64,000 nt of DNA from Balamuthia mandrillaris (lineage: Eukaryota > Discosea > Longamoebia > Balamuthiidae), in NCBI GenBank assembly GCA_031835245.1, contig JAVKOQ010000116.1, positions 1 through 64,000 on the forward strand, read 5' to 3'. The notes beneath the pieces are model-generated. The model was not told the DNA's origin and searched no databases. It was given only the letters and a program-made list of their open reading frames with translations. Below are positions 31,963 to 61,174 of this stretch, one piece after another. Made by a program: the position numbers and the translations under genes. Position 1 is the first letter of the stretch; each line of letters begins with the position of its first letter.

Positions 31963-32907
31963 TTAAAGACGGGCAGCATGTGCGGGACAGGAACCGGAGG
32001 AGGAAGGGCGGGTGATGGTGCCCTTGATGAGGCCTTGCGGCTCGGAAACGGGGGTCAGGATTTCATTGCTCCACTCGTGCTGCAAGCCAAAGCGGGTGAG
32101 GTCCACCGTCCAGTTGTGGATGTTGGGCAAGGTGAAGGAAATGGACTGCACGTGCACAAAGTCCTTCAAGACTGCGTCCCCAATGGCGTACACGGTCTCT
32201 TGCACGGAGCGGCTGTATCGCTCGGCAAAGAGACGGCAGGTGTTGCGAACCACTCCATTCCATACGGCAGTAAAGTCTATTTGGTGGGGAGGGGCGTTGT
32301 AGGTCCACGTGGCCTCCACCTGGGTGCGGAGCAGGCGGTCTTTGACCTCAGGCAAGGTGGTGTAGCGGTCCTTGTGGAAGCCAACGAAGCCAGAGCCGCT
32401 CGTCTTGAGGAGCTCCAGGTTCCTGAGGCCAGAGACCACCTGGATGGGGCGAGGGCCAGCGTCGAGGCCAGCAGCGCCCTTGCTGCTGGAGATCAGAGCG
32501 GTGCGCACCTCCCTACGAGGGGCAAAGGAGTGGGAGTGGGGCTGTCCAGCCACCACCAGCCGCTCCCACAGCTGCTCCTCTATGTAGGCCTCTACGGTGT
32601 GTATGTGGGAGTACTCCTCCAAAAAGTGTTGCACCAGGCGCACTCCGAACGTCTCTATGTGGGTGATGGGGTCTTTCTTGGCCAGAACGTAGATGGTGTT
32701 CTTGACCGTGTCTGTGGGTACCACAGCCGAGTTATCACCGGTGAGGTAAGAGGCGTCCAGACCCTCTCCTTGCAGCAGGACGCGCACGTTGAGGTCCCTG
32801 ACCTGCTCCTCTCCGCCACCCTCCTTCCTCGTCACCTTCAACAAGCGCACATGTCGCTTGCCGTACTCGTTACCCGATAAATAAGCTGCGGTACTGCTGC
32901 TTGCCAT
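31963..32907 (-). CDS. Urate oxidase (uricase), peroxisomal
   Basis: Cofactor-free oxidation of urate to 5-hydroxyisourate in purine catabolism. A single exon of 945 bp, 314 aa, typical uricase length. Hallmarks: GNEYGKRHVRLLKV (catalytic Lys region), DNSAVVPTDTVKNTIYVLAK (active-site Thr), HIETFGVRLVQHFLEEYSHI, SFAPRREVRTA, SGLRNLELLKTSGSGFVGF, KDRYTTLPEVKDRLLRTQVE, and QHEWSNEI. The C-terminus ends in ARL, a plausible PTS1-type peroxisomal signal. The gene sits next to XRCC2, same strand, with a 287-bp gap that holds an A/T-rich tract. Confidence 0.97.
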   Translation of the reverse strand: MASSSTAAYLSGNEYGKRHVRLLKVTRKEGGGEEQVRDLNVRVLLQGEGLDASYLTGDNSAVVPTDTVKNTIYVLAKKDPITHIETFGVRLVQHFLEEYSHIHTVEAYIEEQLWERLVVAGQPHSHSFAPRREVRTALISSSKGAAGLDAGPRPIQVVSGLRNLELLKTSGSGFVGFHKDRYTTLPEVKDRLLRTQVEATWTYNAPPHQIDFTAVWNGVVRNTCRLFAERYSRSVQETVYAIGDAVLKDFVHVQSISFTLPNIHNWTVDLTRFGLQHEWSNEILTPVSEPQGLIKGTITRPSSSGSCPAHAARL

Positions 32908-33067
32908 CGTGGTGCTAATAACAACAATGTTGTGGTGTTGTGGGAGGAAGAAAAGAAAGAAGAAGAAGAAAGGCGACTCAAGAAGAAGAGCTCTGTTTGT
33001 TTTTTTTTTTTTTTTGTTAGAGGGCGACTTGAAGTCGCTGCGGGAAGGCTGCGGGGAAAAATATGGC

Positions 33068-33085
33068 TTAGGGTTAGGGTTAGGG
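33068..33085. repeat. Interstitial TTAGGG repeat (three units)
   Basis: Three exact TTAGGG units lie about 160 bp upstream of the uricase ATG and about 85 bp outside the left end of the Fanzor element. Too short to be a former chromosome end with confidence; it may be a promoter element or a chance or repair-derived insertion. Confidence 0.8.
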
Positions 33086-33169
33086 CCACCAGGGGTTACT
33101 AGGGCTAGCCTTTTGTGCCTTCCTTCCACCTCGTGTCGACGGAAGTTTTAAGGAGAACCCTCTTTAGGC

Positions 33170-33214
33170 TAAGGCGGCGCCAAGATCAAGCCGATCCATG
33201 GGACAACGAAAATA
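33170..33214 (+). repeat. Left terminal inverted repeat of the Fanzor element
   Basis: Outer 19-bp arm 33170-33188 and inner exact 14-bp block 33201-33214; partner at 35609-35651. The end lies downstream of the Fanzor gene's 3' end. Confidence 0.85.
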
Positions 33215-33347
33215 AAGCAAAATTAGTAAAAGATTAGTAAAACAAAAAAACAGACACAAAAAATAACCCACCTCCGGCGTGCCTAATCACGGCTTGTCTT
33301 ACGACTCGCTATAAGCAACGGTGCCGGCACCAAAGCAACCTTACCGC

Positions 33348-35079
33348 CTACCGCCCCCTCACAGAGGAGGAGGAGGAGGTGGTAAGTGCTTGTAAAGTGA
33401 AAAAGCGGATCAAGATGTTTCGGGCGGCGTTGGCATCTCGATCGGCCTGGTAGCCACACTCGGGTTGGGCACCGAAAGGTCTTGTTTCCCCCCAACTGGT
33501 GGTGGACTTGGCCGCACTTGCCGCAGGTCTTGGAGGTGTATTCCTCATCGCAGAGGCAGACCGTACAGGACGGAAATTGCTGGGCCTTGTTGAGGAGCCT
33601 CTGCCTGAAGCGATAGTGGGACCAGGTGAGCATGGCTCTGGCCGTTCGCGAGCCAATGCGGCGGTGGCCTCGCCGCACCATCTGCTGGCTCCTGAACTCT
33701 GGCAGAAGGATGAGGGAGAAGTTCCTGACCAACCAAGACACGAGCTTCTTGTGGAGGTCATCCACCAGGTTGCGGATCCTCTGGCGAAGCCGAGCAGCGG
33801 CCCTTCGGAGACGGCGCCGTTGCCTGTGGTTGCCCTTGGTGCCCTTACTCTGCATGCGATCCAGGCGGTGGCACAGCTTGCCTATCTCGTTGATGTCCGC
33901 TTTGCCCCACTCGGTGACCTCCCCGCAGCCGTTGTAGGTGGTCATGAATGTGCGCACTCCTGGATCCAAGGCGATGATGCCTGCCTCTCTCCTTCGGTGC
34001 TCACGGGCTTGGCTCTCGCCCATGAGCTTCAAAGGCTGAGGCACGCAGAGGTAGTAATGGCCCAGTCGAGTGTCCTTCACCAGACGAACGGCATAGAGCA
34101 CCTCTGACGGAACTTTGTAGTTCTTGTCCCTCGCTTTGATTCGCGCCTCCCCGAAGAAGAGTTGGCGGATAGAGCTGTTGTGGTTCCACTCCCTGGCTTG
34201 GATGCTGAGAGACTGGCTCTTGTCCTTCCTACCACGGAACTTCATCTGGAATCCAGTCGTGCCTCTGCCCGCCGCCAAGCTGCTTTTCACGCCGTTGAAG
34301 AAATCATCGACAGCGTCACTCCGAATGAATCGAGGAGTTTCCAACACCCACGCAAGGCTCTTGTCCTCTCCCGTGAAATTGCTGTTATTTAGGAATTTCT
34401 TCCTGACTTGTTCCTTCATCTCATCACGAGGCATTCCTTGATGTTCACGATGGAACTCCACGGCCTTGTTGTAGGTCCATCGTACTGTGCCGAACCACTT
34501 GGCCAACGTCTTCTTTTGTTCCGGGCGCGGATAAAGGCGGATCTTCTCCACTCGCCCCACTACCGGTTTCTCCTCTCCGTTCTTGCCTTTTTTGGTAAGC
34601 TGTACGGCTGGGCGAGACGGAACGAGTCCCTCGATGAGGCCTAACAAGCCTTTCTGGTTTTTCTCCTCTTCTTCCTTCTCCTTCTCCTCTTCCTCTTCCT
34701 CCTTCTTCTCCTTCTCCTTCTTCTCCTCCTCCTCCTCCAACACCTTTTCTCCGTTAGGAATGTGCTTGCAGGCGGTGAACCATCCTGAACCACAGGCAAA
34801 GGGTTCTTCCAAGCACAAGGCTTCCGGGCGTATTAATCTTCTCCCGATTAAGCTGGAAAACTGGTTCCAAAAGGGCTGGGCGGGTGCAGCCTGCGGCCTT
34901 CCACGCTTCTGTGCCCTTGCCTGAGGTGCCGCTGGGGCGTTTTCCGCTCTTCTTTTCCGAGTAGCAGTGGAAGTAGCAGAAGTAGTGGCGCGACCCCCTT
35001 CCTTGTGGACCCGACCGAAGTGGATGGCCAACCCGTGAGAGGTAGCAAACTTTTTTCCGCACTGTGGGCAACTTGCCAT
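33348..35079 (-). pseudogene. Fanzor (eukaryotic TnpB/OrfB) RNA-guided nuclease, frame broken near C-terminus
   Basis: Fanzors are eukaryotic relatives of TnpB/Cas12 that cut DNA with an RNA guide. From the ATG at 35079 the frame encodes an N-terminal C2H2 finger (C4, C7, H20, H25), basic linkers, a Glu/Lys tract (about residues 112-142), then the TnpB core: RLYPRPEQKKTLAKWFGTVR, WTYNKAVEFHREH, RuvC-I ALDPGVRTFMT (Asp), a basic bridge helix, RuvC-II LILLPEFRSQQM (Glu) and the zinc-ribbon start KTCGKCGQ...TFRC. Just after that Cys (about 33455-33472) the frame breaks by one base: the continuing frame gives noise to 33283, while the overlapping minus frame ending at 33348 encodes ECGYQADRDANAARNI, the second half of the ribbon and the RuvC-III Asp. 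It is either a recent pseudogene or a single-base sequence error. Confidence 0.9.
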
Positions 35080-35608
35080 TCAGGCCAGCTTCCAGCAGCG
35101 TTGTGGAAGAGGCGCACAGAGGTTCGTGATGCTGTTCTTTTTTAAACAATTTTGTTTCCATCATCAAAAAATGTAGTGAGCGAGCAGAGAAAAAAGAACG
35201 CTACCTTTTCAATCGGAGCAGTGCCCCTGCTTGCGGCTGAACCGCTTCGGTTTCCACCTCTGCCTCCTTCCGCTGGTTTCCTCCTTGTGTAGTAGAAGCG
35301 TAGCAATGAGAAATACGGTGGTGCGTGGAGCTTCGTGGATGCGTGTGTCTGTGTGTTTACTTTTTAAAAGAAAGAAATGAAAAGAAAAGAAGAGAAGAGA
35401 AGAAAAGAAAACGAGTAGCAGAAAAGTGTCAAGGCGACTGACGAGTACCAAAAGTTTATTGGCGGCAGCAGCAGCATGAGCATCCATTCCGTACACCCCC
35501 CACCCCACACCCCAACCCTACCACTTTGCCTTCAGAGACGTGGGAGAAGGAAGGGTTGTTTTGGCGGGAAACATGCTCATTGGCCCAAAAGACTAATGTC
35601 GTGATTTC
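35080..35608. other. 5' non-coding part of the Fanzor element
   Basis: This 529-bp stretch separates the Fanzor ATG from the inner block of the right inverted repeat. It should hold the Fanzor promoter and 5' UTR. It includes a purine-rich AAAAGA stretch (35366-35412). No transposase or other convincing gene is visible. Confidence 0.5.
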
Positions 35609-35651
35609 TATTTTCGTTGTCCTTAGATCTTATGATCTTTGCGCCGCCTTA
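35609..35651 (-). repeat. Right terminal inverted repeat of the Fanzor element
   Basis: Partner of 33170-33214: inner 14-bp block 35609-35622 and outer 19-bp arm 35633-35651, followed at once by the 10-bp duplication 35652-35661. Confidence 0.85.
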
Positions 35652-35762
35652 CTCTTTAGGCTGTGCCGCCAACAATTAAAAAGCACTAGCTAGCTGCGGG
35701 CGACGAGCAGCTTTCCTTCGCCACTCATTTCGTCAGCAGTCAGGATAAGGCCGATCTCTGCC

Positions 35763-39124: not shown

Positions 39125-39446
39125 AGAGGGTGCATCCAAGACCTCCACGCTTTGCCTACCCGAATAAACCACTGCCACAAAACAAGAATTACATCACTTT
39201 GCCCAGCCATCTCTCTGCAGGGGTGATAGATTAGGGGCTGTTGATCGTTTGCTTGTTGTTGTTTCGCTTTGTTGTAGTTCGGGAGTTTTTGGACTCGAAT
39301 TGCAAATAACTAAAAAATCCGGTTGGTGGGCTGGTTGACCCGCAAGCCGTACCAGTCTTTATGAACTTACCCAAATTGAGGTGTGCTTTATAGCGCAGAG
39401 AAGAGGAAGGCCAAAAACGCAAAAGCTGTCAAGCAAGAGGAGGAGA
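39125..39446. promoter_or_regulatory. Spacer between TypA and the NRPS/KS gene
   Basis: This 322-bp stretch holds the TypA 3' UTR and presumably the NRPS/KS promoter. No particular motif or gene is recognised. An in-frame open extension upstream of the NRPS ATG lacks another ATG. Confidence 0.4.
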
Positions 39447-42400
39447 ATGAGCGGTAGCTCGGTGCGAAATGGCAGTGGTGGTAGTTGCTGCAGGGAGAGC
39501 TTCTGCGCCAAAACTACGACTACCACCGTAAACCAACTACTATGGCGGGCGGTGAGGCGGTTCGGCGAACGCCCGGCGTTGGCTTGGGAACAACAAGGCA
39601 AGTCCTACAGAATGACCTATTCGGAGTTAGGGGACGAGGTGCTGCGACTAGCCAAACAGCTGCAGAGACAGGGCGTTACAAGGAACAGTCGGGTGGCCAT
39701 CCTAGCAGAACGGCGCGCCGAACTTATTTTGGCAGAAGCTGCTGTTATATGCGCAGGAGGAGCCTTTTGTTGTTTAGACCCGGAAGCTCCCCCCCAACGC
39801 AACCAATTGATTCTTGCAGACCTTCAACCCTCCGTCTTCCTCTGTCAGCAGCATCTGCTGAACAAACTTAGACCTGGTGCAGCCCAGTGGAAGACCGTGG
39901 TCCTTCCCTTAGAGACCTTCTGTTGCAAACAAACGAGCAGCCAAAGAACCGAGGTAACCATTCACAACAACAACAACAACAACAACAACGTAGATAAGGC
40001 GCCACTGGAAGAAGAGAAAGAAGAAGACATTCAAGTAAACAACCGGCCGGAGGACTTGGCTTATCTGGTGTATACCTCCGGGACGACCGGCAAACCCAAA
40101 GGAGTTATGGTAACGCATCAGAATCTAGTCAACTTTGTGGAGAGCAGCATGAGCAGGAGGGGAAGGACGTGCCATCATCGGAAGCAACTCCATCGGACTA
40201 TCGCTAGGCGAAAGGAGGAAGAGGCAGATAAGCACGAAGGAGAGCAGGAGGAGCACCACTGGTACTATGAAGAGGGGGATCGTACGCTGCCCACTGCAGC
40301 AGTGCAATTTGACATTCATGTGATGGAAGTGTGGTGTGCGCTTTCAGCTGGCGCTTCCTTATTTCTTATAGCCAAGTGGGAGGTGCTGGACAGCAGCTTT
40401 CTTGCCCAATATCTCTACAAGCACAACATCAACAAAATGTTTATGGCAACGGGCTTGTTTCATCGGTACGCCAACACGAGGCCAGATATTCTCGGTCAAC
40501 TGGAGGCATTGTGTGTAGGAGGGGACTCCCTTTCGGCCTCATTGGCTATGGCTGTAGCCAACAGCTATCCCGGATTGCGGCTGCTAAATGCCTACGGCCC
40601 TTCGGAGACCACGCTTTGGGCGTCCTACTTTCGCGTGAGGCCTGGACGTCACTATGAGAGGATTCCAATTGGCTTCCCTTTGCACAACTACGTGATCTAC
40701 GTCTCGATGAAGAGATGCGGCCCCTCTCCTCGCATCACCAATACCAGGAGAAGGAGAAAGAAGAAGAGAGACAAAAACAGCGGCAACAGGTTGGCGAGAT
40801 TGTGATAGGCGGACTTGGTGTGGCGACCGGCTATTTCAACCTTCCAGAGCTGACTGCCACCAAGTTCCTTCCGGATCCGTTTGTGGCAACAGCAGGCCGT
40901 GAACCACAACGTATGTATCGCACCGGTGACCTTGGCTACTGGTTGCCAGATGGATGTCTAGCCTTCGCAGGAAGGGCTGATGATCAGTTAAAAATCAGGG
41001 GCAACCGTATCGAGCTCGGCGAGATCGAAACTCAACTCAATCAGCATGCCGGTGTGGCGGCGGCCTGCGTCTGCGTACAGCAAACGATAACACTTGAGGC
41101 TACAGCAACCAGTACAACCCACGGCAACGAAGGTGAAGAGAAACGCTTGATAGCCTGTGTGGTGCCACAGAAGAGCAATCATCCACGAGAACAACAGGTT
41201 TCGAAGGAGGAGCTGTTGCGCTACATGAAAGAAAGACTTCCAGAGTATATGCTGCCGAAGCACATCTTTTTTGCAGAGCATTTGCCTACCAATTTAAACG
41301 GTAAAGTGGACAAAAACCAGGTCCTCAGCATGTGGGAGGAAAACCAGGAAGAGGAGGATCTCCGAACGAGCTGCACACCGTTGCCTCTGGATGCCGGCGT
41401 AGAGACAAGATGTGACCAGTCATCTGTGGGGTGCATGTTGCGAGACTTGTGGCAAAGCTGCCTCCATGACACAGCCGGTACGATCGGCATGGATGCTAAC
41501 TTCTTCCAAATGGGCGGAGACTCGTTTGCATGCATGGCACTTGCCGCCAAAGCCAACGAAAAGGGGCTTCCCCTTACCCCACTCCTCATCACTGAGCATC
41601 CAACACTAAGAGCTCAGCTGCAGTACTTGCTTTCCTTGCCTGCTCAAGTATCAACGACTGGTACGACGCGCGAAGACTACTTGCTGCAAGTTCGACTCAT
41701 GCCTGCACAACAACGACTGGCAGACATAGTGTTGAAATCTCACGATAGTGTGGAATACCTTGTACCGGCAACTCCTTCCCAACGAGCTCTACTTATGATG
41801 TCACTACGGCAGCCAAGCAGCGGCCTCATGCAGCTTGTTGCCTCCACTGTTTCTTCTTCTTCTTCTTCTTCTTCGTCTGGAGTAGTATTCGATATTCATG
41901 CCTTCCACAGGGCCTGGGAGATAACCTGCGCCTCCCATCCTGCCCTCCGTGCAAGCTTTCACTGGACTGGCGACATGGCAACCGTTCTCCAAGCCGTTCA
42001 CAACAAAGTGAAACTTCCACGTTTTCCTGTGTTTGAGGTTGGCTCTGAAGAGAAACTCGAAGAGCGGGTGCAACGCTATCTCGCTGTGGATAGGAAACGA
42101 GGAATGGACTTCAAGGTAGCTCCATTGCTCCGCATGGCTATATTCAAGAGAGGCAACGATTCCCAAGGCCCTCGTTGCACATTCGTTTGGACCTACCACC
42201 ACGTTTCACTTGATGGCACATCAACTTCCATCGTCTTCCAAGACTTTGTTTCGTTGTACACAACCTTGGTCAGATCATCACCACCATCAACATCACCTTC
42301 AAATGACCCGAAACGATTGGAAACGCAAACCTCCCTCATCGAAGAGACTGCCCTCATTTCCACCAGCAGCTTACAAGGCCAACAATTCAGCGTGGAACAG

Positions 42401-45400
42401 GAAACAAGAGCAGAGCAGTTTTGGAAGGAGAGAATGGCGGGTGCCCCGACTGAACCATTGATACCGCTAGACTGTACCAGCAGCGCCCCTCCAACAGCGG
42501 AGCAGCTGGTCATCCATCACCCACTCCGACCAGAACTGGTGATACGATTGAAGCAGTGGTGCAACAGGAATGCAATGACTCTTGCTACTGTAACCTTTGG
42601 TGCTTGGCTGTTGCTTGGCTTCGTAGAAGATTGCCTTAGTGGAAAGAGGCGCAAGGCTCTGGGATCTCTCATCAACTTTGCAGGACGGCCTTCAGAAAGT
42701 CTGTCGGCCGCCGCACCCAAAGCCGTGAGCATGCTAGTTAACCCTCTCCCTGTTCATTTATCGGTGGACGAGGAGGATCTCCTTCTTCGTTGGCTGAGGC
42801 AGCTCCGTACCGCTGTGGTGCAGGCCCAGGAGTATGAGTTGTTTTCTCTCGCTAAGGCACTCTCCTTCGCCAACAAGCAAACCTTAGGTCTCGTGCGACA
42901 TTGCTTCAATTGGGACGGCTCACCATTGGAGCACCGAACGGTGGAGTGCTTTTCTACTCCTTCTTCTTCTACTGCTGCCTCTTGCGCTTTCCGAGTCGAA
43001 CGTATAGAAGAGCGTACAGGATTCGGGCTGGCCATGAATGTAGCGGACCATGGAGGCTCCACCCTCACTGTCACAATGGAGTGGAATAACGGAATGTACC
43101 GTCAGCAGACCATTCATAAGCAGCTAGTACGGTTTGAGTGGTTGCTGGAAGGTGTTGTTGCTGTAGACAAAGATGATGATCCTTCATTGAGACATCTCAT
43201 CGAAAACATAAGTGCTGTATCTGCACAGTTACCCATTCGGCTTCCGCTTGGGCTTACTCCTTCCGAGCTAGCTGTACTTCGTTACCGGCGAGGGCCAAAG
43301 AGGGCGAGGGTTGCTTCATATTTCGAAGAGAGTATGTGGAAGCTTCAAGTTGTCAAAGTCAAGGGTACTTTGAAGCCTTCTGCTCTGCATCGGTGTCTAC
43401 ACGAGCTGGCTCGTCGCCATCCAATACTTCGTACTGTCTTCTACCATTGCGAAGACAACGAAGAAGAGCTGCTGCGTCGCACCATTCCTCAGGAAGACAT
43501 CGATGTATCGTTTCAAGCGCAAGATCTTTCCTATCTGAGCAAGGGACAACAAGCAGCTAAATTTGAAGAGGCGCGGGCCTCGGCCAAACAGCTCCTTCGG
43601 CTTGGGCAAGGCGACAACCAGAACATGTTCGGCATCATTGCTTTGCGTCTTGGCAAGTTACGGCATTGCTTGCTTCTCTGTTATCATGAGCTTCTCCTCG
43701 ACCAAAACTCTACAATGCTCTTCTGGCAACAGCTTTCTTTGTTGCTGAACGGCAAAGATGGCAACCTCCGAGGCAAACCTAAAACAGATGCCTCTTCCTC
43801 TTCTTTTTTCTCCATTCATCAAGAAAGCGGGATATCAGCCGTTTTACTGTTGCCATTATTCAACAGAACACGTTTAAGAGGAAATTATGAGAAGATATGC
43901 AATCCGCAAACGAGTTTTAGTAAGCCTCCACTCCCTGCGCAACTACCTTATAGTGTACTACCTTCTTCATTATCAGAGAGTGAAGCAGCAGTGACGAGAC
44001 GGCCTACTGCTACTGTTGTGCGCACTCTTCTTGTCCCCAATATAAATGGCGAAGAGGGAGCACAACGGCTGTTGCTGCAACAACCGGTGGTTGAAGAGAA
44101 GCAGCTGTTAGCGGCTCTGCTCATACTCCTCCATAGATACAACACGGAAACCGAATGTGTGGCAGCCACTCTTGTCCCTTCCGAGCTCGTGCCTCGTGGG
44201 ACTGATAGCCATACTGCAGTTGTTTTGGGATGCTTTGTTGCTCCTCGTATCCTAGCAGCAAATATTCCATCAGCCAACTGCCGTGCGGAGGACGTTATAC
44301 GACAGGTGGAGAGGGCTCTTTTGAATTCTGGTGCTGACGATGACGAAGACAACTGCTACGATGATCAATGGCAGCAGCACTCATGCGACTCTTCATCCGG
44401 GATTCAACATCGCCATGGCAATAACGTGGAGTTGCTATTCCACCCATACGTTGAGTTCCCGAGGGAAGAATGCACCCCTCTACGCCTTTCACTCCTTCCT
44501 TCCCGTTCCATGACGCTTCTCTCTGGATCCACTGAGGTTGCCTTCCATATCTCAGAAGACAGACCCGGCGGCTCTCCTGTGGGAACGCTGGAGCTTGCTC
44601 TACACTACGATACGCGTCTGTTTTCCAGCAGAGCTGCTGCATTCATGACCGCCCACTACGCCAATGTTCTGAGCAGCATGTTGGCTGACCCAGCAGTACT
44701 GCTAGGCGACATACCGCTGCTCTCCGCTGAGGAAAATCAACTCTTGGATAGCTTTAGTACCAGCAATGAGAACCACAAGATGCAAGACGCTGCAGCTGCC
44801 GTGCTGGTGCAGCACCTCTTTGAAAAAAACGTCGCTTCTCTACCCGACAGAACCGCAGCATACGTTGCAGAAGGAGATATCTCAGTCTCATACGACCAAC
44901 TCAACTACAAAGCAGAAGCGATCAAGGAGATGCTATGGGATGTGTGTGGAAGGCAGAAGCGAGTGGTTGCACTTTTTTTCAGGCGGTCTGTTGGTTTGTT
45001 GGCCTCACAGCTGGCTGTACTCAAGGCTGGCTTTGTGGTTCTTACTCTGGACCCCGAAGCACCGCTTCAACGCAATTCTGGCATTCTAGAAGACGCCAAC
45101 TGCCAAGTAATCCTCCACATGGATGAGCTGAAGGACAGTTTGCCATCGCCTACTGTCAACGGTAGCTATGATCCTCGTCTTGTGCAGCTGTGCATTGATT
45201 GCCTGGGGGAACCTGTTGTAGCCGAGTCTTCTGGCAAAGGGCGGCATCTCTGTAAACCTACTGCTGCTGCCGCTCTCCATCATGACGTCGCCATGCTGGT
45301 ATTCACCTCTGGAACCACGGGGCGACCAAAAGGCATTCAGGTCACTCATCAAAACATGGTGAGCATGTTTAGCAACAAGTTTCAATTCCATGTGGAGGAA

Positions 45401-48400
45401 GGGGATAGGGTGCTGGCCACCACTGCTGTGCAGTTTGACATGAGCGTGCTGGAGGGGCTGGGCACTCTATGCGGAGGAGGCAGCGTCGTTTTGGTGGACA
45501 AAGAGTCTATTCTGGATTCTCGCTCTATGGCGAAGGTTATCAAGCAGCACAAGATAACCAAGATGGTTTTTGTCAGTGCACTGTTCAACCACCATGCACG
45601 AGAGAGACCCGAAATGTTTGCAGGACTGAAGCAAATCATACTTGGCGGAGACGAGGTGCTGCCCAAGCCTGTACTGCGGGTGCTGGAGACCAACCCAAGC
45701 CTGATCATCACTCCTGGTTATGGACCCACCGAGTGCACAATGGTCTCTACCTATTACTCGATGGACCCTGCCTTGTTGAGCAGCATGCAGACTTCAGTGC
45801 CTATTGGCAGACCCATTGACAACGCGGTGGCCTACGTAGTAGACAGCTATTTCAACCGCGTGCCCGTTGGTGTTTGCGGGGAATTGCTCATAGGCGGCGG
45901 AGGTGTTACTAAAGGCTACCTTGGCAATGAGGAGCTGACTGTCCGCAAGTTCGTTCCCAACCCATTTGCCTCCTCGGCTGTTGGAGGAGCAACGGGAGGG
46001 AGTGCCATGGCTCCGGTGTTGTACCGCACTGGGGACAAGGTGAAATGGCTGTCAGATGGCAATATCCTCTTTGTTGGCAGAAATGATGGGCAACTCAAGA
46101 TAAGAGGAAACCGTGTGGAATTGGGAGAGATAGTCCGCGCTCTGCAAGACCACCCACTTGTTGGGGACGTTGCTGTGGTAGCCTGCGACGGGGAAGGTCC
46201 TGCACCTACAGCAGAAAAGCATTTGGTAGCCTTTATAGTCAGGAAAGGAAAGATTGCCACGGGCAGCGGTATCACTGCTCCGCTAGAAGCTGCCATGCAA
46301 GAAGACTTCAGGACGTTTTTACGAGGACGCCTTCCCAGCTACATGACGCCACGCAATTTCTTCTCCATCGACCGTATCCCGATGACCCTTAACCAGAAGG
46401 TGGATGCTGCCAAGCTGAGAGATATTGCTCACATCAAGCTGCGTGAGGAGATGGAGGAAAACGATATCGGATTGCTTCATCCGCACGAATTAGGGAATGG
46501 TGGTGAAGCCTGCAAGAATTCCTGCGTGAATGGATCAAAAGATAGGATCACCTCTATCTCGGGAGGTTGTCCGGAGCACCACATCGCGGTGCGAAAGAAG
46601 CTGCACTCACTGTGGAAAGGGGTCATTGGCCATCCAGTCCGTCCGGAGGACAGATTTTTTGAGGTTGGCGGTGAGTCCCTCATGGTATCAAGGCTCTGTC
46701 AACAGATCGCCAACGCTTTCGGGCTTGATGAAGACGAGGACCTCATGGGTGTATTCTTTGAGCGGCCGACTATTGCCGGCATGGAGAAGTACTTATTACA
46801 ACGTTTTGAAGCTATAACAGCGACGGGAGAAACGCATCAGCTATTGCAACCATCCAACGCTGGTAGTATGACACAAACAATCAGCAAAATGCAACCTGAG
46901 TCGACGCCTACAGCCAGCTTTCCACCAGCGACTCACTCTGCTAATAACAAGGAAGGAAAGGAGAAAAAAGAAAAGAATCAAGCAATGGGCAATGTAGAAT
47001 CCACGCACATAGCAATAGTGGGTATGGGATTTAGAGGTCCCAAGGCTAGCAATTACCAAGAGTTGTGGGAGAACCTCAAGAATGGGCAGGATTGCATTAC
47101 TAGGTTTACCACAGCTGAACTGAAGGGGCACGTCTCAGATGAGGCCCTCTCTCATCCCTCCTATATAAAGGCAAGGGGGTGGGTCGAGGATGCTCTTCAG
47201 TTTGACCCACAGTTCTTCAACATTGCGGAGGAGGAAGCTTGCGCCATGAGTCCCCAACACTGGATGTTTTTGGAAATGGCTGCGACCGCCCTGAACGACG
47301 CTGGCTACCCCAATCCATCCCTTCTCAGGACGGAGAGGAAGCTTACTGGAGTATTTGTTGGAGCTGCGGACAGTCACAGTGATGACAGTGGGTATAGCAA
47401 CGGTGAGGACGAAAAAGAGGAGGAAGAGGAGGGAACTGGTACCTGCCGGAAGAACGAGACCAAGACGAAGAGGAGGAGGACTCCAGCAGAGGAAACCAAG
47501 CGAAGCATGCTACGCTCTAACCACTTTATAGCCTCCCGTGTGGCATACCACCTGGACTTGGATGGACCAGCAGTAAGCGTGCAGGCGGCCTGTGCCTCAG
47601 CTTTGGTGGCTGTGCATCAGGCTTGTTCCGCTCTGAACAACGGTGAATGTGACATAGCAGTAGCTGGCGGAGTGGAAGCTGCCCACAAGGAAAAGGAGGG
47701 CTACTTTGTGGCAACTACGAGCCTTTCCAAGGATGGGGTGTGCCGGCCCTTTGACACCCAGGCAGGCGGCTGTGTACCTGGTAATGGCTGCGGTGCTGTG
47801 GTACTGCGACGACTGCAGGATGCTCTTGCTGATGAGAATCACATCTATGCTGTGATAAGGGGCTCTGCCACCAAGAATGATGGGGCAGCAGGAAAGATGG
47901 GCTATTATTGTCCCGGCGTGCAGGGCGTCGCCTCCACTATTGAACACGCCATTCGTGTTGCTGGCCTGCGCCCTCAAGACATTTCTTTTGTGGAGACAAA
48001 TGGTACAGCTGTACCTTTAAGTGATTCCATTGAGATTCAAGCCCTTCGCAAAGTATTTGTTGAGAGAGCTGCTACCAAGGACGGACAGACTAAATACCAG
48101 ATGGAGCCCCTTCATCAGCACCGTTCTCAATATTGTGATGGAGAAGACAGCAGCAGGCAGCATCCTCATGGCCCCCATATCGCCTTGGGAGCTATCAAAT
48201 CCAACATTGGTCATCTTGGAGCAGCTTCAGGTATTGCTGCCCTCATCAAAACCGTTTTATGCCTCTACCATGATACAATTGTCCCAACTGTGAACCATTC
48301 TTCTTCTCATGCCAATCTCCGCTTGGAGAGCTCTCCATTCTTTGTGCCTACAAAGTGCGAGGCCTGGCCTCTCACTACTGTTCATTCTCACTTGGGTAAG

Positions 48401-48694
48401 GCAGCTGGAGACGAAACAAGAACACTTTTTGCAGGGGTAACTGCGATTGGTAGTGGAGGCACTAATGTCCATGTTGTACTGCAAAATGCCCATCCTTTCC
48501 TACCAAGAAGAGGAGGAGTTTCTCTGAGTGCTGACTCCTCCTTACAAGAAAGGAAACTAAACATCCCTCCCCTTTGCTTCAACAGAGTGTCAATGTCCTC
48601 TTTATTGTGTAAACATCAGATTGCTGTTAAGACATTAGACATATCTAGCATATCACAAGAGGAGGAGATTGCAGCCTTTGAACTTTATGAGTAA
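39447..48694 (+). CDS. NRPS/KS megasynthase A-T-C-C-A-T-KS (one frame break)
   Basis: About 3080 aa with no introns seen. A1 (to ~41330): YTSGTTGKPKGV, NAYGPSETTLW, YRTGDLGYWLPDG, LKIRGNRIELGEIE, NGKVDKN. T1: MGGDSFACM (~41510). C1 (~41750-43090): intact HHVSLDG. C2 (~43220-44740): degenerate HELLLDQ. A2 (~44800-46430): FTSGTTGRPKGI, GYGPTECTMV, YRTGDKVKW, LKIRGNRVELGEI. T2: VGGESLMVS (~46670). KS (~46995-48510): nucleophile Cys in VQAACASALVAVHQAC and NIGH retained, but the HGTGT His is Asn (ETNGTAVPLSD). No AT, KR, reductase or TE. Near 40702 the frame breaks by one base inside A1 (YVIYV then LDEEMRPL in the next frame); total length is one base short of whole codons, so a one-base deletion or sequence error. 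The product is unknown. Confidence 0.88.
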
Positions 48695-57868: not shown

Positions 57869-60800
57869 ATGACTTCAGTAGCGTTTGTCAACTCTAGGGG
57901 CTGGGGACAAGAGGAATTGGTCAGCTGTTGGGCTGACAGTAAGCAATTTGACATTATTGGAGTGTGCGAACATAGGAGGATGGTTGCCCCTCGATTGGAG
58001 GGGTATCGGTGGATGGGTGGAGGGGCTGCTCCAGGGAGGAGTGGCTATGGAAGGGGTGGCGCAGGTTTCTTTGTTCGAGAGGGCTTCAAGGGGAACATCA
58101 GAGAAAGGAAAGAGTGGCGAACACCCAACTCCACTTGGGTGGAACTGGCGGGACAGGGTTGCATCTTTATAATCGGTATAGTGTATCTCCCTCCAGGAGG
58201 TACCGTGGACAACTTTAAGGTCACCTTGGCTGCGATTGAGAAAAGAATCCTGGACGTGGTCAAGGAAGGAAGACCCCTGATTATTGGAGGTGATTGGACC
58301 GCCAGGGTTGGAAAGGGATGGAATGGTAGAGGTGAATCTACTTACAACACGAGAGGAAAGGTGTTGGTGGAGGCTTTCAAAAGGCTGGCCCTCTCGTTGC
58401 CTCAGCTCGAAGAGGAAGCGCCAGTATTTACATGGAGAGCTGGAAAACGAAAGAGCATTGTGGACTATGTGGTAGCATGGAGATGGCCGGGCAAGGTAGT
58501 TGGTGACAGATGGCAAGCTTGGACCGATCATCGACCACTGGTAGTCGAGTTGAAGGACCCAGCAGATAATTGTGGCGGGGTTTGGATGGAACGATGGAAG
58601 TGGAAGTCCTACTCGGAGGAAGATCGCAAGAGGAGGTGGAGGGAGTACAAACGCGGGTGCAAGCGTTTCTTCAAAGGAGAGGAATGGAAGGCCATGGTCA
58701 AGAAAACACGGGAGGGAGCAGCTACTGTTGAAGATCTTTGGAGCAAGTGGAAAAAAGGATTGTGGGATTGTGCAATGAGATGGTTTGGTAGAGAAAGGAG
58801 ACTGATAGGAGCAACAACAAGCAGGGCAAGGAAGCCATGGTGGACAGCAGAGTTAACATCCTTGAACAAGCAGGTAGCGATAGCCCATGCTCAGTGGCTA
58901 AGAGAAGGAAAGAATGATGGAAAGGCCAGAGAGGAATTTGTGGAACTCAGAAAAAGGTTTGTGAAGTTGTGGAGAGCCAACAAATGGGACTGGATGAAGT
59001 GGAAAAGACAAGAGAACATCAAGGAAATGCAGAAATGGATCGGCAACATGTGGAGGATAGTGGCAAAGCGTAGAGCAGAGCCCAAAGCAGTTATGGAGCA
59101 CCACGGTAGCACAGCAGCCTTCAAGGAACATTGGGCAAAGCTGGGAAGGAAGGATTCTTCCATTGGGAGCTTGCATCGAGAGGAAGCAGGTCCAGAAGGA
59201 CTGCCTTGGTCTGGTAGTAACTGGCTTAAGAAGGAGAGTTTTAATCTTGCATGGAGGAAAAGATTGAGGGTGGGCAAAGCAGCTGGGGGGGACAATATTG
59301 ATGGGGAAATGATGAAGTATGGAGGCAAACATGTGCAAGATGCAACTTGGACGCTGATCAAGGTCATTGAGAACCAAGGCATATTCCCCAAGGAGTGGAA
59401 ACAGGGGGTGGTTATTCCCTTGCATAAGACAGGAGATCCCCAGAATCCAGCAAACTATAGAGGTATTACTCTCCTATGCAATGCAGCCAAGGTGTTCGAA
59501 GGAGCTATCTTGGTACAATTGAACATACAAGCAAGAGAGCAAGGGTGGATAAGTAATTGCCAGGGTGGATTTAGAAAAGGAAGGGGAGTCATGGATCAGG
59601 TGTGGCGGTTGAAGAAATGCCTGATGAAGAGAAGCAAAGAACGTACCTATATTGCTCTGTTGGATATCAGCAAGGCATATGACATGCTTGCCCATGACAT
59701 ACTGGCAAGGACATTACGCAAAAGAGGAGCAGAAGAGGCAGCAGTGGGTATCATTACAGAGTGGTACCATGGTATGACGAGTGTTATTCGCATGAATGGG
59801 CAGCTTTCAGAGGAATTTCTGGTGGAAAGAGGAGTTAAGCAAGGAGGAGTTTTGTCTCCATTCTTGTTCAATGTATACATTGATGTGGTGGCAAGAAAGC
59901 TACAAGCTGCAGAGGAGAAGGAAAGATGAGATAAAGCAAGGAATGTTTGCTTGTTGTTTGCAGATGACTTGGCAGTGGTGGCCAGCGACCCATTTGAGCT
60001 TCAGAGAAGATTGAATGTAGCAGTGGAGGCAGTGAATGCTCTGGGACTTCAGTTCAATGCAAAGAAATCAGTGGTGCTAGTACAAGGAAAGAAGGCTCAT
60101 TTTCAAGAGTGGAGACTGAAGGGGGAGGCTGGGAAACGGGTGAAGGAGGCCAAGTACCTGGGACTGTGGTTTGAAGAAAGTGGGGAATGGACAACTCATG
60201 CCAAGGAGAGGATCACCAAGGCCAAGCAAGCCCTCTACAGCCTTAGGCAGCGGGGAGCCAATGCCCAAGGCCTTGGTACACGCACTGCCCAGATTGCTGC
60301 AGAGGCTATTGTCAAGTCTACCTTGTCATATGGATTATGTATGACAGAGCTTTCCAAATCATGGTGGAAGAAGATCGAAGCAGTGTGGAATGAGACAGCA
60401 AGAAGTGTATTGCAAGTTCATCGAAGGACTGTGGCGGGGGTTTGTAGAGCAGAATTGGGCTGGTTGACCATCAAGGCCTGCTGTGAGTTGGAAAGACAAG
60501 CAGTAATTCATCATGCTGAGAGGCAAGATGGCCACTTTGAGCTACTTGAAGAGGTAAGCCAAGCAAGTGAAGAGGAAGGGGAGAAGAATGAAGGTGAGGG
60601 AGGTGACGGAACGACAGTTGTTGAAAAGAAAGCCAAGAGGATGAGGGCTTTAACTCGAGTAGCCAAGATGGAGTATGCAGCTGAAGGAGAAAGAGGAACA
60701 AGAGCATGGCTATGGCATAACTTCTTGACAAATGGAAGATGTTTGGTTGGACAACAACGGAGCTTAGTGATTACCAACCCAAGGAAAGAACGTTTGATGA

Positions 60801-61174
60801 ATGCTATTCGCTGTGGTGGACTGCCTATTGGAAAAAAGTGGGGATCCATTCAGCAGTCTGAGGAGGATAGCAAGTGCCCTGCTTGTGATGCTGAGGAAGA
60901 AACAGCAGAACACTTCCTGTTAAGGTGTCCTAACCTTTGGGAAGATCGCTTTAGAATCTGGAGTGTGGACAATGGAAGTGAAGAACAAGTCAGAAAGCTG
61001 ATTATAGAAGACTGTACAACAAAGCTCCTGTCAAGTGGAAAGAAATGTAACAGAGCTCAAGAGATGGAACAATGTAAGCAAAGTTGTAAACGAGTCTGGA
61101 GATTATGGGCAGCAAGAGCAAGTTGGAAGCATGGAAGTTCTTCTGCATTTTATCAGTCTTTGGAAGTAATGTAA
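57869..61174 (+). pseudogene. LINE-A ORF2: APE endonuclease and reverse transcriptase, single nonsense codon
   Basis: The frame spans 1101 codons plus stop, interrupted only by TGA at 59927-59929. The N-terminal APE-type endonuclease shows IIGVCEHRR, IIGGDWTARVG, KSIVDYVVAW and WTDHRPLVVEL. The reverse transcriptase shows FPKEWKQGVVIPLHKTGDP, NYRGITLLCNAAK, CQGGFRKGRG, ALLDISKAYD (catalytic Asp), VKQGGVLSPFLFNVY and LLFADDLAVVA (catalytic Asp pair) just after the stop. The C-terminus carries a Cys/His knuckle, CPACDAEEETAEHFLLRC. No RNase H is present. The TGA is consistent with deamination of a CGA codon. With the stop this copy should be inactive unless readthrough occurs. Confidence 0.88.

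Follow-up and report, generated by a model that had tools for sequence, protein, structure and literature searches.

We report here that a 64,000-nucleotide stretch of the Balamuthia mandrillaris genome (contig JAVKOQ010000116.1 of assembly GCA_031835245.1, positions 1 to 64,000; hereafter the window) contains a member of a transposon family in which a TnpB-like Fanzor gene lies between terminal inverted repeats (TIRs) and a target-site duplication, and that copies of this family occupy a one-sided insertion motif, C-R-G, of fixed orientation relative to the gene. Taken as a whole, we consider it likely that this is a transposon moved by a DDE-type transposase which has captured a Fanzor2 nuclease, that the nuclease draws its guide from the element end on the 3' side of its gene (the L end, the R end being that on the 5' side) and uses C-R-G as its target-adjacent motif (TAM), and that it recuts sites which the element has vacated.

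The existence of a repeat family was established by searching the B. mandrillaris genome (64,792,369 bases, 775 contigs). The outer repeat occurs within two mismatches at 126 places on each of the two strands, 252 in total, of which 100 were listed, while a reversed control pattern occurs at none on either strand. Patterns of 23–24 bases specific to each end recovered 65 L ends and 105 R ends; all of the former and 100 of the latter were listed, which leaves pairing among these 165 ends incomplete relative to the 252 places counted. Thirty convergent L-R pairs less than 20 kb apart are found among them, 29 spanning 187 to 2,547 bp and one 9,917 bp, and the genome holds at least 86 Fanzor matches (73 of 459 candidates scored). 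When the loci were read (149 distinct ends), 18 of 36 convergent pairs proved to be flanked by a duplication of 8–10 bp, mostly 10, with at most one mismatch, and the pairs on C176 and C131 display one too once an end is shifted. The original prediction of a Fanzor gene within a TIR transposon with a 10-bp target-site duplication is thereby borne out, and the genome-wide search for further copies that it had recommended was amply rewarded. The nine short copies which we compared represent separate internal deletions. At the extreme, three minimal copies of approximately 36–52 bp (L071, L078 and L112) consist of barely more than the two end repeats, with apparent duplications flanking them by eye. 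One short copy (C98:144215-144590, L017) lies between an inverted, rather than direct, repeat of its target; inverted flanks had been suspected at several copies, and only this one, with a score of 9 against a 99th percentile of 7 for random pairs, stands above the random range (the C114 copy is borderline at 7).

Mobility was addressed by joining the flanks of 10 copies with one copy of the duplication, searching the genome with the joined sequence and aligning the counterparts. For four of the 10 copies an element-free counterpart crosses the junction, whereas for the other six the search gave back only the two halves of the copy itself or matches that were partial and did not reach across it. 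The clearest case is on C562, where 140 of 140 bases agree with the C129 site as it would be without the element. The window site itself is among the four, its diverged counterpart on C102 lacking the element and carrying CTCTTTAGGC once. C9 holds a diverged empty counterpart of the C598 copy (a second, on C83, was not read), and C23 (L154, C23:68390-68560) is nearly empty relative to the C593 copy, retaining approximately 10 extra bases that contain GCCGCC and possibly constitute an excision scar. Because of the perfect 140-bp empty site, we conclude that the family has recently been mobile. Empty sites of this kind had been called for by the original prediction, which further took the well-preserved ends as a sign of recent activity; this stands for the family, although not for the Fanzor of the window copy, which is frameshifted.

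The flanks of the element are markedly asymmetric, and we regard this asymmetry as the part of the system most worth experiment. Read in the sense of the Fanzor gene, 14 of the 17 duplication-verified copies have C at position -2; position -1 is A in 11 of them and G in 5, and the duplication opens with G in 15. Nothing comparable to C-R-G is present on the far side of the same copies. Counted over unique ends, the first outward position is G at 54 of 62 L ends versus 27 of 75 R ends (Fisher p 1e-9), and at 47 of 54 versus 22 of 66 under a stricter typing that excluded duplicate flanks and the 22 of the 149 ends whose type was unclear. At R ends the triplet C[T/C]G has its start at outward positions 8–10 in 51 of 66 cases, against an expectation of 5.2, and at L ends in 6 of 54, against 1.9; the expectations are taken from outward positions 14–29, and the contrast between R and L has a Fisher p of 1e-13. 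The insertion site is thus C-R-G followed by nine free bases, in an orientation fixed relative to the Fanzor gene. A nuclease that requires a TAM 5' of its target, and that takes its guide from the 3' end of the element, predicts a motif of this one-sided kind. Among known Fanzor2 TAMs, CCG (NlovFz2) and TAG (MmeFz2) likewise end in G; the SpuFz1 elements have CA upstream of their 5' repeat and a TAM of CATA (Saito et al. 2023, PMC10432273); and the fixed nucleotide on the right flank of IS607 elements is treated as scaffold by TnpB (Yoon et al. 2023, PMC10711439), a place that is occupied here by the G beside the 3' end of the element. It is thus probable that C-R-G is the TAM of the nuclease and that the guide begins inside the duplication, with target preference of the transposase as a strong rival.

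The sequence of events that we propose may be set out as follows. A cut-and-paste transposon of approximately 2.5 kb, non-autonomous and dependent on a DDE-type transposase supplied from elsewhere (Mutator-like, to judge by the 10-bp duplication), would have taken up an RNA-guided nuclease, a Fanzor2 that descends from IS607 elements. The guide RNA would extend outward across the 3' (L) end of the element, such that the first duplication base, G, stands in for the fixed right-flanking nucleotide of IS607, the remaining nine duplication bases and the flank beyond them form the guide, and C-R-G serves as TAM. Once the element had excised, the restored site would be cut again by the nuclease, provoking repair from a copy still holding the element, and interruption of this repair would give rise to the numerous internally deleted copies. 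A more specific version, namely that the IS607 rule itself was kept after the switch of transposon, with the fixed G as first duplication base, C-R-G as TAM, the guide inside the duplication, an emptied donor recut so that the element is copied back, and C-R-G marking those insertions that survived through protection by the nuclease, is offered tentatively and with considerable doubt.

As for the class of the nuclease, the protein of the window family is most likely a Fanzor2 rather than a Fanzor1. Its best relative of solved structure is TnpB-like L79 (1.7e-27 by single sequence, 5.6e-48 by profile), which we take to be a mimivirus protein and a Fanzor2; the next profile matches in the PDB are a nuclease designed by artificial intelligence and bacterial TnpBs. 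The viral relatives number 326, from which 79 loci were kept. Of these, 42 hold an IS607-type recombinase, which stands immediately upstream in 41, and 37 of the first 38 loci listed are among those 41; it is because the viral relatives mostly stand behind an IS607 recombinase that we favor the Fanzor2 reading. The Balamuthia genome holds six more distant Fanzor loci of 44–57% identity (C27, C57, C71, C79, C622 and C774), all of which except C79 adjoin a serine-recombinase match, that of C622 scoring above the NCBIfam cut-off for the IS607 transposase. A tree with 125 rows over a short alignment of 146 columns, its bootstrap not settled, puts the TIR family in one group with P0067 (source lgn) as its sister (support 98/85); the IS607 Fanzor of C622, which we had considered as a direct sister, is placed elsewhere with weak support. 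Fanzor2 proteins in TIR cut-and-paste transposons of an alga and of molluscs have been designated Fanzor2* (PMC10711439), and with TIRs, target-site duplications and an IS607 recombinase (TnpA) in none of 30 family loci, the window family is best read as a further Fanzor2*. In place of the Fanzor1 proteins that the original prediction had cited stands a protein that looks like Fanzor2, both in its L79-like profile match and in its IS607-linked viral relatives.

The transposase that moves the family was sought by way of two domains. PF00872 has no match in the genome; PF10551, the domain of Mutator-like elements (MULEs), has 68, none of them closer than 8.8 kb to any of the 165 listed ends, and the 20 of these MULE loci that were read contain no family end closer than six mismatches. 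An autonomous MULE relative with the same ends, for which the original prediction had suggested a search, was consequently not found among them. Mutator-like elements produce target-site duplications of approximately 8–11 bp, a range in which the 8–10 bp of this family fall, and a Mutator-like assignment is our best guess; as no transposase was found, it is the length of the duplication by itself that points there. As far as seen the element is non-autonomous, since 29 of the 30 pairs do not exceed 2,547 bp, no duplication is shared by the two ends of the 9.9-kb pair and the additional sequence of the C12 copy belongs to a foreign transposon. The idea of a non-autonomous, MULE-like element with its transposase elsewhere therefore holds in its first part, while membership of the MULEs is a presumption. 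Two candidates for an autonomous partner were discarded, namely the C354 pair with ends 9,917 bp apart, which shares no duplication by eye, and the 4,542-bp copy on C12, which has a perfect 10-bp duplication and a second open reading frame (ORF), the latter belonging to the nested foreign transposon. This transposon (L146:3264-5290) has CACTG...CAGTG ends, recognized by eye, and lies within the L repeat of the Fanzor element; its family has a further copy at L149 (C83), and no Pfam model matches its 363-aa ORF above cut-off. This ORF has 78 matches in the genome, counting itself and distant relatives, with open frames of up to 901 aa. In many contigs (C473, C321, C612, C725, C361, C521, C138, C294, C738 and others) the MULE-domain matches begin 1,288–1,292 bp in from the first base, a regularity suggestive of a repeat that is near-terminal or breaks the assembly.

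The window ORF matches HTH_OrfB_IS605 and Cas12f1-like_TNB above the Pfam cut-offs and OrfB_IS605 just below, and the intact family copy on C110 scores 124.9 bits against the NCBIfam guided_TnpB model (cut-off 100). The RuvC-I motif has the form ALDPGVR, of which D372-P373-G374 are invariant in 20 aligned sequences, as are E512 and the RuvC-III aspartate D549; E512 stands seven positions, with six residues between, before C519, the first zinc ligand. A DPG motif together with an alternative glutamate approximately six residues before the C4 zinc finger is a mark of Fanzors and their closest bacterial kin, and is common to Fanzor1 and Fanzor2 (PMC10711439), and so does not decide between the classes. 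Over 17 intact copies the pooled ratio of nonsynonymous to synonymous differences per site (pN/pS) is 0.277 (136 pairs, pS 0.044; the pairs are not independent, and L046-L048, three of the 17 loci, are 99.2% alike), a value which suggests that the coding sequence is under purifying selection. An N-terminal C2H2 finger was detected by a regular-expression motif in one of 120 homologues, P0002, likewise from B. mandrillaris.

Three alternative accounts of the element deserve mention. That chance repeats happen to surround a stray TnpB gene would find some encouragement in the inner inverted block, which by itself is not rare (0.48 expected at up to two mismatches; 12 of 100 shuffles reached two matches). 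However, the TIR gave no chance match at up to three mismatches in 100 shuffles of the window, and the 252 ends against none for the control, together with the empty sites, have already refuted this account, to which we assign practically no weight. It is also very improbable that this is an IS607-type element, composed of a serine recombinase and a Fanzor2, with end repeats that are accidental. The protein does look as though it descends from IS607 elements, and of the six distant Fanzor loci in the genome five adjoin a serine-recombinase match; against this, the recombinase is missing from 30 of 30 family loci, and the repeated inverted ends and 10-bp duplications are features of which IS607-type Fanzor2 elements have neither (PMC3627910), so that the duplications and empty sites refute it already. 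Consideration was given to the L end being an IS607 end, as the L end on C57 lies approximately 320 bp behind an IS607-type Fanzor2, yet the 3' boundary common to C57, C622 and C774 comes earlier, from which it follows that it is not. A Fanzor1 element of the MuDR type found in fungi (ROr-4, PBl-3, MCi-4) is improbable as well, if less remote. Bao and Jurka 2013 described Fanzor2 in IS607 elements only, and MuDR-like Fanzor1 elements that lack a transposase (PMC3627910), and the layout of the latter, a Fanzor with TIRs and 9-bp duplications, resembles that seen here. The profile nonetheless reaches TnpB-like L79 and bacterial TnpBs and, up to an E value of 10, no chain named Fanzor; the viral relatives are linked to IS607 transposons, in which Yoon et al. 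found no Fanzor1 (PMC10711439); and the HTH_OrfB_IS605 domain present here is described as not discernible in Fanzor1 (PMC3627910).

With respect to the captured Fanzor2 and its proposed TAM, the most serious alternative is that C-R-G is the target preference of the transposase itself, made one-sided by unlike binding of the two ends, and that the Fanzor merely rides along or has its role elsewhere; we lean mildly away from this account and hold it to be a substantial possibility. Several observations weigh against our proposal, some of which this alternative would accommodate. Scored as C[C/T/G]G at R-end start positions 9–11, with duplicates kept, the motif is present in 14 of 16 full-size copies, 5 of 7 copies of 800–2200 bp and 23 of 36 unpaired ends, and copies below 800 bp, which lack the ORF, have it about as often as full-size ones (11 of 13), which is why it may reflect the transposase. 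The inner blocks stand at different distances from the two ends, and no sign of a guide RNA was obtained: the 3' region folds with no excess stability relative to shuffles (z +1.2, +0.47 and +0.4 for 110, 130 and 180 nt, against +0.3 for a control at the R end), and the two matches that Rfam returned were both below threshold and outside the 3' region. Moreover, 14 of the 36 pairs lack a duplication, the C98 copy has its inverted flank and the C46 copy has too little flank to judge; C102 has no TG beside its single site, and hence no motif there; and no transposase with the family ends was found in a search that covered PF00872 and PF10551. On the side of the protein, the best-scoring viral locus (L158) is without a recombinase match, none is listed for the divergent Fanzor locus on C79, and the absence of PDB chains named Fanzor is of restricted meaning, as the names of Fanzor1 entries were unchecked and no named Fanzor1 was compared directly. 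Last, the Fanzor of the window copy leaves the family frame after residue 539, which puts RuvC-III out of frame and leaves this copy without a whole nuclease. What speaks against the transposase account is that the outer repeats differ at only 1 of 19 positions, such that a symmetric preference would have been expected, and 51 of 66 versus 6 of 54 ends is not what a symmetric transpososome should produce. The coding sequence, furthermore, appears constrained. Since each of the nine short copies compared is an internal deletion of its own, these copies may have been full-length when they inserted, and we therefore rejected them as a clean control for the motif.

Among known systems, the Fanzor2* elements of Chloropicon primus and molluscs (PMC10711439) are similar in having DPG, the alternative glutamate and a TIR transposon with target-site duplication and no IS607 TnpA, and differ in their hosts, an alga and molluscs as opposed to an amoeba. 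The same paper predicts that the duplication lies within the RNA scaffold, whereas here the 10-bp duplication is variable and only its first base is near-fixed. The SpuFz1 elements of Spizellomyces (PMC10432273) likewise have a single Fanzor ORF of approximately 2 kb between TIRs, many copies, many more without the ORF, and CA upstream of the 5' repeat, but their protein is a Fanzor1 with a TAM of CATA, and the 'ghost' loci of Spizellomyces share a conserved region of approximately 550 nt, unlike the separate deletions of our nine short copies. ROr-4, PBl-3 and MCi-4 share the Fanzor, TIRs, long duplications and absence of an encoded MuDR transposase, and differ in carrying Fanzor1, in their 9-bp duplications and in TIRs that were matched to confirmed MuDR elements (PMC3627910). 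The IS607-type Fanzor2 elements (ISvMimi_1 type; C57, C622 and C774) encode a related nuclease (56–57% identity over approximately 210 residues); unlike the window family, the three in this genome adjoin a serine-recombinase match and have a shared 3' boundary that the window family lacks. Capture of Fanzor2 by ordinary transposons has been proposed as a step from bacterial TnpB to eukaryotic Fanzor1 (PMC10711439), and the present family would be one more such capture, this time in an amoeba whose genome offers numerous copies of the element, sites empty of it and relatives linked to a recombinase. Since the 10-bp duplication is variable, the target of the transposase, the boundary of the RNA scaffold and the TAM should be distinguishable here. 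The proposal makes a sharp prediction (TAM C-R-G, guide from duplication base 2) as to what an RNA-guided nuclease does for a transposon of the cut-and-paste type, and the landing sites hint at how a Fanzor cutter may help the element to persist. A search of the literature available to us found no paper naming both Balamuthia and Fanzor.

The architecture of the window copy is given in Table 1. The positions that the original prediction had assigned to the 19-bp TIRs, the inner blocks and the perfect direct repeat touching both outer ends are all exact, and the TnpB-like ORF is indeed the sole recognized gene inside; the other interior ORFs of at least 60 aa are all of 202 aa or shorter, the domain search among these smaller frames having covered 33348-33761.

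Table 1. Features of the Fanzor transposon copy in the window (positions in the window).
Feature	Position	Strand	Remarks
Left copy of target-site duplication, 10 bp, CTCTTTAGGC	33160..33169	.	Single copy in empty counterpart C102
TIR, L end (Fanzor 3' side)	33170..33188	+	19 bp; 18/19 relative to R end
Inner inverted block GGACAACGAAAATA, L end	33201..33214	+	14/14 relative to R-end block; present in other copies
3' non-coding stretch into L end, candidate omega-RNA (reRNA) segment reading into flank	33170..33347	-	Proposed by analogy with SpuFz1
ORF of probable Fanzor2 type, 598 aa as read	33283..35079	-	Family-like to residue 539, other frame after
Other-frame ORF with family C-terminus and RuvC-III motif	33348..33761	-	
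N-terminal C2H2-type zinc finger, residues 3-25	35005..35073	-	Pfam E 5e-4, below Pfam cut-off
Inner inverted block, R end	35609..35622	-	Exact 14-bp match to L-end block
TIR, R end (Fanzor 5' side)	35633..35651	-	Differs from L end at 1/19 bases
Right copy of target-site duplication, CTCTTTAGGC	35652..35661	.	Its last C is the G of C-R-G in Fanzor sense
CA (Fanzor sense) directly 5' of duplication	35662..35663	-	First two bases of C-R-G target motif, predicted TAM

The insertion adjoins a uricase gene (PF01014, 5.4e-58; window 31963-33129). Three TTAGGG units are present at 33068-33085, approximately 75 bp from the insertion, and this site is the sole exact occurrence of TTAGGGTTAGGG in the window; similar telomere-like repeats stand beside two other copies, in the L-end flank of L026 and at the R end L089. 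Farther away, positions 57869-61174 hold a reverse-transcriptase ORF (RVT_1, 4.5e-21) followed by a second ORF with no Pfam match, perhaps a retroelement resembling those without long terminal repeats and split over the two frames. A hybrid nonribosomal peptide synthetase/polyketide synthase gene (AMP-binding, condensation and ketoacyl synthase domains) occupies 40715-48694, and the shorter ORF directly before it (39381-40805) may be the start of that gene.

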